From positions 1 through 39,869 of IMG/VR virus record IMGVR_UViG_3300025286_000041: 39,869 bases of DNA. One strand, written 5' to 3'. The notes under the pieces were generated by a model that saw only the letters and a list, made by a program, of their open reading frames with translations, ran no database searches and had not been told where the DNA came from. Shown here one piece after another: positions 780 to 37,315 of this stretch (positions are counted from its first letter, which is position 1; each line of letters opens with the position of its first letter). Made by a program: the position numbers and the translations under genes. This DNA is from a virus.

Positions 780-1355
780 GTGAACATAGAAAAAACGGCA
801 ACGATAGCCTAAGCCTAGGAATAGGAATCACTCTAAACATAAGAGTGTCGGAAACGTAAACATCCGGTAAGCGAAACTCCCAAAGTCAACGCAAAAGCGA
901 CAAAAGGATAGAAGAAATCTGATTTCTGAAACGTTGAAAGCGTAGAAAATAGAAATCTGGATTAATAAGAAACTCAAGAACCCTACCGATTAAATCGGGG
1001 CCTAGGGCTAAAACAAGTAGGTTAGATTGTGGATATCACAATCGCTAACAGCCTCAGGATTGAGCAGGCTATTAGTTCAGCTGAACATCCTAGTTTGATA
1101 GGTTCCTGAAGGCTATCAGCTAGTTTTCTCATAGTAAGAATGACATAGGTTGAATCCGCTAGAAAAACGGCAAGGTTTCTAACGGTATTTTATGGACGAA
1201 AATCTTCTAATGGATAGCGATTGACATGTCTCGATTATCTAAAAGTGAAAGCATCCAAATATAGAAACGTCAATAACAGGCGTTTGATGCGACTAAGAAT
1301 TATTACCTGCTAAAACTTACAACCTTATCGGGGAGCATAGTAATTCTTAGATTCT
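780..1355 (+). ncRNA. Candidate large structured noncoding RNA
   Basis: At least ten hairpins follow one another. Stems (left/right) are 829-834/842-847, 913-918/922-927, 981-990/994-1007 (two stacked 5-bp helices), 1025-1031/1037-1043 (7 bp), 1046-1054/1066-1074 (one mismatch), 1075-1078/1083-1086, 1090-1123 (four helical blocks), 1156-1185 (CCG and TAGAAA blocks), 1213-1239, 1251-1290 (GCATC and AAACG blocks) and 1293-1302/1341-1350 (10 bp perfect). Unpaired segments are A-rich on the + strand, which suggests + is the RNA strand, and no frame is open. Size and layout recall the ornate phage RNAs GOLLD and ROOL, but I cannot show homology. The exact ends, promoter and terminator are not visible. 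The RNA may extend upstream to about 650 and may be processed from the early transcript. Confidence 0.65.
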
Positions 1356-1677: not shown

Positions 1678-2712
1678 ATGAATATGACGGCTGAAATGGT
1701 AATGGAAATATATAATTGTGATTGGTGCGGAGATTCGGGGGAATATGACGCAGCTATTGAGGATTATCCAGATAGTTTTTACTACCTAGATAACGATGAC
1801 GTTGTGTGCGATGACTGCAGGTATGATGCGTATAGCTGCTATAACTGTGGTACTACTGGACACTGTGATAATAGCTGCTATTGCGATAATTGCTGCGAGT
1901 CATACTGTGACAGCTGCTACTACGATAGCTATGAGCATAGCTGCAGCAATAGTGATGGTATACATGATTATTCATATGTGCCTGATGAATTAATGTTTCA
2001 CGGCAATCAATATCCATTAGACAATCCCATGCCTGATTTATATATGGGAGTTGAACTGGAAACTCAAGGGGAAATAGGGGATGCGTCCGCATTAATAGAT
2101 TTTGTTCAACGTGATGATGAGGAACACGCATTTCTTAAAGACGATAGCAGTATATCAGGCGTTGAAATTGTGACTCACCCGATGACACTTGACTACCACC
2201 GTAACGAGTACGATTGGCAAGGGTTGATTGAATCAGCCGAAAGTGATGGGTTCTACGATGGCACCGGAGCCGGATTACACGTGCATATATCAAGAGATGG
2301 CCTCGGAAACTCAAGAGCTGAGCAGGCACAAGTAGAAACGAACGTGTTAGCTATGCTTGAGATTCACTGGGATAAATGGGTTGAACTTGCTAGGCGTGAT
2401 AGTAGCCATTGGGCAGCTAAGAATTTGCTGGGCGTATCTATCAATAAGAAGAACCTAGAAGATGGCAAAGACTACCGCAAGGGTAGGTATCAGGCACTGA
2501 ATTTCACCAACCCAGACACCATAGAGTTCAGGATGTTCAGGTCAACGATGGACGTGAGCGTGATACAAGCTACGCTTGAGGGTGTATATGTCATGGCATT
2601 CATGGCCAAGTATCGCAGCCTAGAAAACATACTCAATACCACGTTCGATGACGTGCTGGAGCAGGCTGCAGCCTTGAACCTACACCACCTGTTTGACTAC
2701 TACACAAGCTAA
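1678..2712 (+). CDS. Amidoligase family enzyme with Cys-rich zinc-binding N-terminus
   Basis: This 344-residue protein matches the COOH-NH2 ligase (Amidoligase_2) family, whose members use ATP to join a carboxylate to an amine. Visible family motifs are MGVELET (123-129), the DDSSISGVEIVTHP stretch (about 155-168), GLHVHIS (199-205) and a closing TIEFRMFRST (281-290). Residues 14-89 form a separate region with many CxxC-type pairs (CDWC, CDDC, CYNC, CDNC, CDSC) likely to bind several zinc ions and perhaps to bring a protein or nucleic acid substrate. ATG 1678 lies only 3 bases after GTAGGGAG; the in-frame ATG at 1684 (9 bases) may be the true start. The next gene encodes a glutamine amidotransferase that could supply ammonia. 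The substrate is unknown. Confidence 0.85.
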   Translation: MNMTAEMVMEIYNCDWCGDSGEYDAAIEDYPDSFYYLDNDDVVCDDCRYDAYSCYNCGTTGHCDNSCYCDNCCESYCDSCYYDSYEHSCSNSDGIHDYSYVPDELMFHGNQYPLDNPMPDLYMGVELETQGEIGDASALIDFVQRDDEEHAFLKDDSSISGVEIVTHPMTLDYHRNEYDWQGLIESAESDGFYDGTGAGLHVHISRDGLGNSRAEQAQVETNVLAMLEIHWDKWVELARRDSSHWAAKNLLGVSINKKNLEDGKDYRKGRYQALNFTNPDTIEFRMFRSTMDVSVIQATLEGVYVMAFMAKYRSLENILNTTFDDVLEQAAALNLHHLFDYYTS

Positions 2713-2757
2713 CCACACACCAACTCATAAACAACTCATAAAAGGAGACATGCCTAT

Positions 2758-3591
2758 ATGTGCATTATTGCAATAAAGAAATCAGGAACACCTATCGACT
2801 GGAACATGCTTGATACGTGTGACCTAAACAATCCCGATGGAGCTGGCTACGCCTACGCTACAACCGATGGCGTAGTAATCAGCAAGGGTTACTTTGGAAA
2901 CGATGAAATAGAACGGGCTATCAAGGCTGAGGGCATAGATACAACTGCCTTGACCATGATATTCCACTTCCGAATAGCCACGCATGGGGCGGTGAATGAG
3001 GGAACGTGTCATCCATTCCCGATGACGAGTGACGTTGATGCCCTGACCGCTACAGACGTGATAGCACCGATAGCCGTGGCACACAATGGAATTATTCCAA
3101 GGATGCCGAACGATAAAGACCTATCGGATACCATGCTATTCATAAGAGATTACATGGCACCGCTTGGAGACAGCATAAACAAGGATGCGGTACGCAACCT
3201 GATATCCAAGCTGGCTGCCAGCAAGCTAGCCATCATGACCCCTGAGAATCTGTACCTGATAGGGGATTTCATAGACAAGGACGGCTGGCTATTTAGCAAC
3301 GATACCTATAAAGAGATGGCTTGGACCAAGTACGTCAAGGAGGATATCAGTACGAGGGGAGCAGGCACGAGTACAGACCGCATCAATCGGGAGTGGAATG
3401 ATGATGACTGGAATAAGTGGGCAGAGTATTACGAGTCCGCAGAATATAACGATGATTCGGTCCTTGCCTACTGCGATTCATGTGGTGACGAGTACGAGGT
3501 AACAGATACCTCACAAGATAAGATAGGCGATGCACTCTGGGCACTATGCACTGACTGTACCGAACAAGTATCAGCAAAGATGAATAGCTAA
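2758..3591 (+). CDS. Class II glutamine amidotransferase with zinc-ribbon tail
   Basis: This 277-residue N-terminal nucleophile (Ntn) hydrolase of the GATase II type releases ammonia from glutamine. The start must be ATG 2758, since the catalytic cysteine is then residue 2 (MCIIAI), exposed once Met is removed; AAAGGAG lies 10 bases upstream. Family motifs are NNPDGAGYA (24-32), FHFRIATHG (69-77), CHPFP (84-88), AVAHNGI (106-112) and SDTM (123-126). Unusually, the C-terminus adds a zinc ribbon (CDSC and CTDC pairs). No synthetase domain is fused, so the partner acceptor enzyme is presumably the amidoligase encoded just upstream. Known families support the chemistry; the pairing is inferred from adjacency. 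Confidence 0.85.
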   Translation: MCIIAIKKSGTPIDWNMLDTCDLNNPDGAGYAYATTDGVVISKGYFGNDEIERAIKAEGIDTTALTMIFHFRIATHGAVNEGTCHPFPMTSDVDALTATDVIAPIAVAHNGIIPRMPNDKDLSDTMLFIRDYMAPLGDSINKDAVRNLISKLAASKLAIMTPENLYLIGDFIDKDGWLFSNDTYKEMAWTKYVKEDISTRGAGTSTDRINREWNDDDWNKWAEYYESAEYNDDSVLAYCDSCGDEYEVTDTSQDKIGDALWALCTDCTEQVSAKMNS

Positions 3592-3617: not shown

Positions 3618-4475
3618 TTGAATAAAGCATACGAGATAGTAACGAATAAGATACTGGAACTGATGGAGAAAGGAATCATACCTTGGCACAAGCCTTGGAA
3701 ACTGACCGCTGGAATGCTCCCTCAGAATGCCATATCACACAAGGCATACAGGGGTATCAACCCGATACTGCTGGGGCTGGCTGGATACAGTGACCCACGA
3801 TGGCTCACATATAACCAAGCAGTCAGCAAGGGAGGCTATATCAGGGGCGGTGAGGAGGCCATGCCCATCACATATAGCAGCGTCATAGAAAAAGAGACTG
3901 ACGAGATAGACGATGAAGGGAACACAGTCATAAAGAAGTTCTGGTTGCTCAGGTATTACAGCGTGTTCAACGTAGAGCAGACAGCAAACATCGAATGGGA
4001 ATCAATAGACAGGGATAACAGGGTACTCAACCCGATAGCTGCAGCCGACACGATAGTGGCAGAGATGCCCAACGCACCCAGCATAACGCACAACGGAACT
4101 AACAGGGCATTCTATAAGCCAGCCACAGACTCGATACACCTTCCAGTAATGGAAGCGTTCGATGATATCAACGAGTACTACTCAACCGTATTCCACGAGA
4201 TGAGCCACGCCACCGGACATGAGTCACGACTGGATAGGGCAGGCATCAATGACTTCGACCACTTCGGGAGTGAGCAGTACAGCTTTGAGGAACTGGTATC
4301 AGAGTTCTCGGCTGCGTTCCTCTGCAACGAGGCAGGGATTGTCAACGGCACCATAGCTAACTCGGCAGCATACATACAATCATGGGCTAACAAGTTTAAG
4401 AAGGACAAGTCCCTGATTGTGAAGGCTGCATCGTTCGGGAACAGGGCATCAGACTACATATTAACAAGTGCATAA
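3618..4475 (+). CDS. ardC: ArdC-like antirestriction protein (ssDNA-binding plus metallopeptidase)
   Basis: At 285 residues this is close to the usual ArdC length. The N-terminal half (about 1-125, AYEIVTNKILELMEKGIIPW and the later RGINPILL and YYSVFNVEQ) is the ArdC ssDNA-binding domain. The C-terminal half is a zincin with HEMSH (193-197) as zinc site and EELVSEFSAAF (about 224-234) carrying the third ligand. ArdC proteins shield incoming DNA from restriction. The start is TTG 3618 after GGAGGTGG. The family is clear; whether this copy acts against restriction or in replication is inference. Confidence 0.85.
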   Translation: MNKAYEIVTNKILELMEKGIIPWHKPWKLTAGMLPQNAISHKAYRGINPILLGLAGYSDPRWLTYNQAVSKGGYIRGGEEAMPITYSSVIEKETDEIDDEGNTVIKKFWLLRYYSVFNVEQTANIEWESIDRDNRVLNPIAAADTIVAEMPNAPSITHNGTNRAFYKPATDSIHLPVMEAFDDINEYYSTVFHEMSHATGHESRLDRAGINDFDHFGSEQYSFEELVSEFSAAFLCNEAGIVNGTIANSAAYIQSWANKFKKDKSLIVKAASFGNRASDYILTSA

Positions 4476-35965: not shown

Positions 35966-37315
35966 TTACCAGCGTTTCACCATTATCTTGTTTTTATCGG
36001 TGACGTAGCCGTACCCGTAGCGATTTATCAACCCGTAAATCACTGCCTTAACGCCGTGGTTGTACCTGTCCTCAGGCGTTTGCCCGACAATGTTACCATC
36101 CCTGTCCATTTTCCACTTGTACGCACGGGCCTGACCGTCGAAAGGGTTTGGTCTCACACCGAACTCCGATAGTATACCCTTACACTTGGGGTCAAATACA
36201 ATTCTGGGTTCCGTTCTGTCCACCGGGTCTATCTTCAAAAAGGATTTCAGCCTCTCTGTCCCCTCATTGATACGAATCTTCTCCGAATCAAAGAATAATC
36301 CAGTTCTCTCAAGCCATACTTCGGCAGGAGCAGCCATCGCCTGATGCTGGTAGCCTGCAACGTCTATGACACCGAACTGTGCGTCCCTCCACCAAGGCTT
36401 ACTCTGCGCTATATCTATTATTTCATCAGTAACTAGGTTCCTTTCGTATATTTCATCAATAACTCTTACTTGGTCATTGACTATCTGGATGATTTCACAG
36501 GCGTATGCCTCTGCATAGCCGGGGTCAATCCAGATATGAACAGGAATATCGGGTTCGTACTTCACTTCCCTGACATGGATATCGGGTCTTATCTCTGAGA
36601 ACACCATTCCCTGAGGCGGTGCCGGGATTCCCTCAATCCTCTCCATGAAGAAGTCGTCTGATGATGCCTTCTTAAGCTCCAGAATCTCCGGGTCGTTCTT
36701 ACCACCGGGGTATAGATGCTGGTTCGAGTAGCTTGGAAGGGAGAAAGCCTGCTCGTCCTCCGAGCCTGAGTGCTGCCAAGCCTGATACATCTGCGGATAC
36801 CAGCCAAGAGAGCCTTCAAACGTGCCTGAAAGGAACATCCACCCTCTCTTAGGTGCGCACCTACCACGTAATCTGTGAAAAGTCTCAAGGTCGAGCTGTG
36901 ATGCCTCGCATCCTATAACTCCGTCAGGTGCCCTCATAGCAAGAGTGCGTGGGTCTTTTGCAGATTTCGTCTCTATACGGGTGCCGTCTGCAAGAATAAT
37001 GCGTCCGGGGTCTACCCTTTTAGAGGATTCCTTAAGCAGTCCTAGAGCAGCAAAGTCCTGAACAAGGTATTCAAACTCTGCCCTAGTCCTCTCGTAGTCC
37101 GCAGCCACCAGCCAGAACAGCCCTTCGCCGTGTGTCTCAAGAAATCTGGCAAGGAGATACTTGGAGGCGACCATAGACTTCCCGGCCTGCTCTCCCCCTG
37201 CCACGAGAGTGAAGCGTTTACGGGAACCGAGGATACGTTTCTGCAGGTCGGTAGCGGTAAACCCTACCTTGTCATAGATAAAATCTGATAGTTCATTAGC
37301 AGATGCAGTGGTCAT
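35966..37315 (-). CDS. terL: Terminase large subunit
   Basis: A 449-residue packaging motor. Walker A is GGEQAGKS (40-47); Walker B is around GVIGCEAS (132-139), with Glu138 as likely catalytic residue; the coupling motif SGTFEGS is at 163-169. The C-terminal RNase H-like nuclease has acidic residues in IWIDPGYAEAY (D264) and GVIDVAG (D318). It pumps DNA into the prohead through the portal and cuts it. It overlaps the upstream gene at ATGA. Confidence 0.9.
   Translation of the reverse strand: MTTASANELSDFIYDKVGFTATDLQKRILGSRKRFTLVAGGEQAGKSMVASKYLLARFLETHGEGLFWLVAADYERTRAEFEYLVQDFAALGLLKESSKRVDPGRIILADGTRIETKSAKDPRTLAMRAPDGVIGCEASQLDLETFHRLRGRCAPKRGWMFLSGTFEGSLGWYPQMYQAWQHSGSEDEQAFSLPSYSNQHLYPGGKNDPEILELKKASSDDFFMERIEGIPAPPQGMVFSEIRPDIHVREVKYEPDIPVHIWIDPGYAEAYACEIIQIVNDQVRVIDEIYERNLVTDEIIDIAQSKPWWRDAQFGVIDVAGYQHQAMAAPAEVWLERTGLFFDSEKIRINEGTERLKSFLKIDPVDRTEPRIVFDPKCKGILSEFGVRPNPFDGQARAYKWKMDRDGNIVGQTPEDRYNHGVKAVIYGLINRYGYGYVTDKNKIMVKRW

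Follow-up and report, generated by a model that had tools for sequence, protein, structure and literature searches.

The region at positions 752–1356 of a contig from a bacterial virus is, on balance, best read as a large structured RNA encoded on the + strand, which opens the early operon, occupies a slot with exchangeable content and likely acts in trans. The sequence studied was IMG/VR record IMGVR_UViG_3300025286_000041, a virus contig of 39,869 nt, referred to at its full length as the window. That a large non-coding RNA precedes the early genes had been proposed in an earlier note on this DNA, and the proposal is supported by the position of the region and, in relatives, by covariation specific to one strand and by conservation like that of a gene. 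The note had also allowed for a new class; what was found suggests that one slot holds several RNAs that cannot be aligned with each other, more than it suggests a single conserved class.

Position and folding of the gene-free region

The leftward genes of the window include those for the terminase subunits, and from 1430 onwards the early genes run rightward. The two ends of the window have the 13-mer CCCTTGACAATCC in common; the genome is therefore probably circular, which would place the region between the divergent late and early modules. There was no tRNA gene in the window. The features of the region and its surroundings were as follows (L003 is one of the relatives described below).

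179–247: segment of about 70 nt near CCCTTTTTATGGAAATTAAATGTAGACGG, kept in many terminase relatives, on the side of the slot that faces the late genes
718–745, + strand: likely early promoter TTGCAT-16-TATTGT, predicted from a weak sigma-70 match
752–1356, + strand: candidate large structured non-coding RNA, its ends estimated from the promoter and the last stem
777–782, + strand: GAGGTG, resembling a ribosome-binding site, without a good start codon
1266–1286, + strand: hairpin AAACGUC-AAUAACA-GGCGUUU, 19 of 20 bases in common with L003 3058–3077
1293–1350, + strand: 3'-terminal long stem, 1293–1305/1338–1350
1357–1428, + strand: leader hairpin CAGCAGCTAA/TTAGCTGCTG within TTATTAAG/CTTAATAA, preceding the first early gene
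1430–1612, + strand: first early ORF, 60 aa, no family match
1678–2712, + strand: amidoligase-like protein (PF12224)
2758–3591, + strand: class-II glutamine amidotransferase-like protein
3618–4475, + strand: ArdC-like anti-restriction protein (ArdcN and MPTase-PolyVal)
35966–37315, − strand: terminase large subunit, the probe by which relatives were found

The earlier note had described some 575 bases without a gene, and indeed no ORF of at least 50 aa was present in 780–1355; the longest stop-free run in 761–1430 was 31 codons on the + strand and 55 on the − strand. As the extent of a gene-free stretch 780–1355 was correct, but not as regards its start, the likely transcript beginning about 30 bases earlier (~752). 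The hairpin density noted previously was also found, as a moderate excess. The minimum free energy (MFE) of 780–1355 had a z of −2.76 on the + strand, a value that none of 100 shuffles reached, and of −3.02 on the − strand, and was similar on both strands; 752–1356 gave a fold z of −2.25 (30 shuffles). The region had five perfect hairpins (arms of 6 bp or longer, loops of 3–12) where 1.2 were expected, a count that 1 of 100 shuffles matched. The excess of structure over chance is moderate and alone would not prove an RNA, and a large share of the hairpin density as such is expected from A+T-rich sequence anyway. Hairpins named individually in the note were present, namely 1156–1185 (arms 1156–1165/1176–1185, CCGCTAGAAA/TTTCTAACGG), the nested hairpin 1251–1290 with its inner stem 1266–1272/1280–1286, and the perfect 10-bp stem 1293–1302/1341–1350, which lies within a 13-nt arm pair. 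Its description of the + strand loops as A-rich held as well, A making up 56–57% of the unpaired + strand bases in the RNA region against 37–45% in early-gene controls on the same strand. Palindromic sequences suited to self-pairing were not in excess, except weakly in the relative L008.

The promoter region 718–745 gave a 56-nt alignment (68%) with the same position in the relative L145 and aligned ungapped with L147; with an E value of 0.048 this is suggestive only. No + strand terminator was found from the end of the RNA to the first gene, this interval holding only the repeated hairpin element 1357–1428. A second, near-identical leader hairpin with conserved internal loops (1606–1674) precedes the second early gene, and the pair is possibly an RNA processing or translation-control element. 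Because a promoter-like sequence precedes the region, no + strand terminator follows it and a gene lies within about 75 bases, we infer that the early transcript begins with this RNA; its promoter, transcription and processing are predictions from sequence. Upstream of the slot, degenerate repeats of the TGATACCTGATG type were seen at 360–450, and the block 179–247 was about 79–80% identical to L003 and L166.

A proposed exchangeable slot in related viruses

Relatives were of two kinds, amidoligase neighbours and viruses with terminases 72–100% identical. A search with the amidotransferase led to L003 and L004 (57%) and L008 (48%), and the terminase alignment to 492 relatives, 80 of which were fetched; in those reaching far enough, the slot was read upstream of the small terminase. 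The slot lies between the leftward late and the rightward early genes, directly after the promoter-like sequence. Non-coding, A-rich regions of 565–860 nt occupied it in L003/L004, L008/L170, L145 and L155/L156/L213, and a protein gene filled it in L147, L146/L144, L160, L172, L176, L188, L195 and L204. In the 941 nt leading to the slot, L145 and L147 have 83% identity, yet the slot itself holds about 870 nt of non-coding sequence in the former and a protein gene in the latter. The fold z was −3.2 for the non-coding region of L003 (about 2356–3195) and −2.8 for that of L008 (about 330–890); L145 folded no better than shuffles (z −0.3) and had no excess of structure. L008 and L170 were 71% identical over 510 nt, the 5' part being common to both, and by eye one of their hairpins differs in sequence, yet can form in both. 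GGAGG-like motifs without a usable start codon were seen at the RNA starts of L003, L145 and L155, at the place that GAGGTG has in the window. In L172, L176 and L146 the spacers between early genes contain a recurring element of the CTGAGCAAGT-TTAAAACTGCTCA type.

Between lineages the RNAs were unalignable. Those of the window and L003 could scarcely be aligned beyond one 20-nt hairpin towards the 3' end (95% identity), for which an exact scan of IMG/VR returned only L003 and L004; an alignment of the two 3' ends was discarded, nothing beyond this hairpin being convincing. A blastn search of the region against phages and plasmids gave no match, scans of genome contigs with the amidoligase and amidotransferase alignments gave none or only distant MAGs, and missing RNAs were not present at the far ends of partial circular contigs. 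The lineages may differ either by extremely fast divergence or by unrelated RNAs replacing each other, of which replacement is favoured because of the presence-or-absence pair L145/L147. The amidoligase was considered as an obligatory partner of the RNA and rejected: amidoligase–amidotransferase pairs are common in phages, and the amidoligase neighbourhood was not found in the stretch of L213 that was read. An ArdC-like gene follows the RNA in L213 as well, as the third ORF.

The main rival to a trans-acting RNA is a reading of the region as the 5' untranslated part of the early mRNA, controlling that mRNA in cis by processive antitermination, by stabilisation against RNases or by control of the first genes. 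We consider this possible, in any of these modes, but unlikely. It would agree with the + strand running without a terminator from the RNA to the first gene, past only the repeated hairpin 1357–1428, and with the first gene following immediately on the end of the RNA in the window, L008 and L145. However, 565–860 nt is much longer than usual leaders, and the close relatives L147 and L146 are without the RNA. A regulator bound by a host factor should moreover retain a common motif, whereas no 7- to 9-mers common to most lineages were found above chance.

Covariation and conservation in close pairs

Covariation of paired bases was found in same-slot relatives, with two to three sequences only and in RNAs unalignable to that of the window. 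L156 and L213 are about 91% identical (91.4% in the RNA) over about 835 nt, and their RNAalifold consensus had an energy of −168 kcal/mol against −107 ± 5.7 in column shuffles and −152 on the opposite strand. Column shuffling breaks dinucleotides, but each sequence alone also beat dinucleotide shuffles (fold z −5.5 for L156 and −4.2 for L213). Doubly compensated pairs numbered seven, with 1.9 expected and a maximum of six in 40 shuffles. One-sided changes, counted in helices chosen without strand preference and with G-U and A-C equally allowed, gave G-U in 5 of 5 cases on the + strand and in none on the − strand. A three-helix domain of L155, L156 and L213 was 98% paired with four double changes, against 0–1 in slid controls; a covariance model of this domain had no match in the window, L003, L008 or L145.

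The RNAs of L003 and L004 differ at 3 of 840 bases, being 99.6% identical where the upstream spacer is 73% identical, and those of L156 and L213 are 91.4% identical against 56% in the spacer. The RNA is far better kept than the spacer in these close pairs and is therefore conserved there like a gene.

These observations bear on a second alternative, in which the inverted repeats act as DNA, in a replication origin or a divergent control region. The divergent intergenic place is what such an element would have, 780–1355 folds similarly on both strands, and there is no G-U excess on its + strand, the G-U versus A-C count in its helices leaning, not significantly, to the other strand. The covariation energy and one-sided G-U changes of L156/L213, however, favour one strand, and because of these strand-specific changes we regard a DNA element as improbable. 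Against it also stand the unpaired A-richness on the early-gene strand in all lineages, the conservation of the RNA part and not of the adjacent spacer, and L147, which is wholly without the region.

Proposed role and comparison with known large RNAs

We return to the reading of the region as an early trans-acting RNA. Host polymerase would transcribe it from the predicted early promoter, at the head of the early operon and with no terminator of its own, and it would probably be excised from the 5' end of the resulting transcript or else stay folded there. The slot would be exchangeable, carrying the same RNA, a very different one or none, with a protein gene where the RNA is absent. The folded RNA would most likely act in trans at the start of infection by binding or decoying a host factor, perhaps in defence, translation or RNA decay; the trans action and its target are conjecture. 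An early role in host takeover or anti-defence, exerted in trans, would suit an RNA that is transcribed first, trades places with protein genes, is conserved like a gene and has an ArdC-like gene nearby, and we infer such a role. Points against this reading are that the window RNA has no alignable homologue beyond the one 20-nt hairpin, that L145 is an exception without excess structure, that both strands of the window RNA region fold alike, with a G-U versus A-C count leaning, not significantly, to the other strand, and that the amidoligase neighbourhood is not constant. As a wider proposal, which we hold to be somewhat doubtful, whole structured RNAs of 600–850 nt may be swapped like anti-defence proteins at the first position of the early operon throughout this large phage group, as fast-evolving trans effectors against host immunity or translation. 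If so, large RNAs would join the counter-defence repertoire of phages.

A similar arrangement was seen in the Methylophilales phages MEP401 and MEP402, whose early region also includes genes for an amidoligase and an amidotransferase and whose divergent gap has a fold z of −8.1 and −6.7 in MEP401 and about −7.5 in MEP402. Identity between the two is 93% in the flanks and reaches some way into the gap (L131 4270–4960 and L137/L138), after which several hundred bases are unalignable; a different phage family may thus show the phenomenon too. The gap of the Marvin cluster (L132 3381–4145) was not counted as the same, being dominated by direct repeats with a fold z of −1.75; at 3663–3762 this Mycobacterium phage Marvin gap carries TTAGG-type direct repeats also found in Corynebacterium phages (75–77% identity). 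Long A-rich leader-like regions were seen upstream of amidoligase genes in three unrelated phage contigs (L014 4860–5300, L115 5240–5905 and L127 3680–4420), where they follow clear TTGACA promoters. On another phage contig a Pistol ribozyme (L020 4841–4915; Rfam RF02679, above gathering) lies about 2.2 kb upstream of an amidoligase–amidotransferase pair.

Phages encode GOLLD and ROOL, RNAs that range from about 600 to more than 800 nt, assemble into cages made of RNA alone and frequently lie close to tRNAs (PMC12286853). The earlier note had suggested a divergent member of one of them, and had proposed a search with the GOLLD, ROOL and OLE models. None of the Rfam covariance models, these included, matched the window at gathering level or with E values up to 10, and the RNAs of relatives had no Rfam match, in L003 and L156 also at relaxed level. 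Size, A-rich loops and phage origin would suit GOLLD or ROOL, but with no Rfam match, no tRNA nearby, an early position and no common core or universally conserved 3' region across lineages, membership is highly improbable. GOLLD resembles the window RNA in being phage-encoded, often over 800 nt, ornate and A-rich (PMC12286853); the window RNA differs in its lack of a covariance-model match and in being first in the early operon and not beside tRNAs, and in place of a GOLLD-type universal 3' region only one hairpin was common to the window and L003. ROOL is likewise phage-encoded, about 600 nt long and without a known protein partner (PMC12286853), whereas the window RNA has no covariance-model match, no tRNA island (a location near tRNA genes is frequent, not strict, for ROOL) and no enrichment of self-complementary sequences.

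Two further RNAs are likened here by description, not by sequence. In phage ICP1, a gap of about 1 kb that has neither ORFs nor tRNAs gives rise to an RNA of about 800 nt (PMC7567579). It shares with the present case the orf-less gap, the absence of tRNAs and the size, in a lytic phage, but adjoins the lysis cluster and not an early promoter (PMC7567579). In phage K, lnc001 is a long non-coding RNA made from its own early promoter (PMC9241854), but it stands beside tRNA genes, in a staphylococcal Kayvirus (PMC9241854). The slot RNAs offer a comparative and experimental handle on large phage RNAs such as GOLLD and ROOL because of their fixed early place, their presence or absence in close relatives and the several unalignable versions in one slot. 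The present RNAs are filed with the large phage RNAs, outside GOLLD and ROOL.
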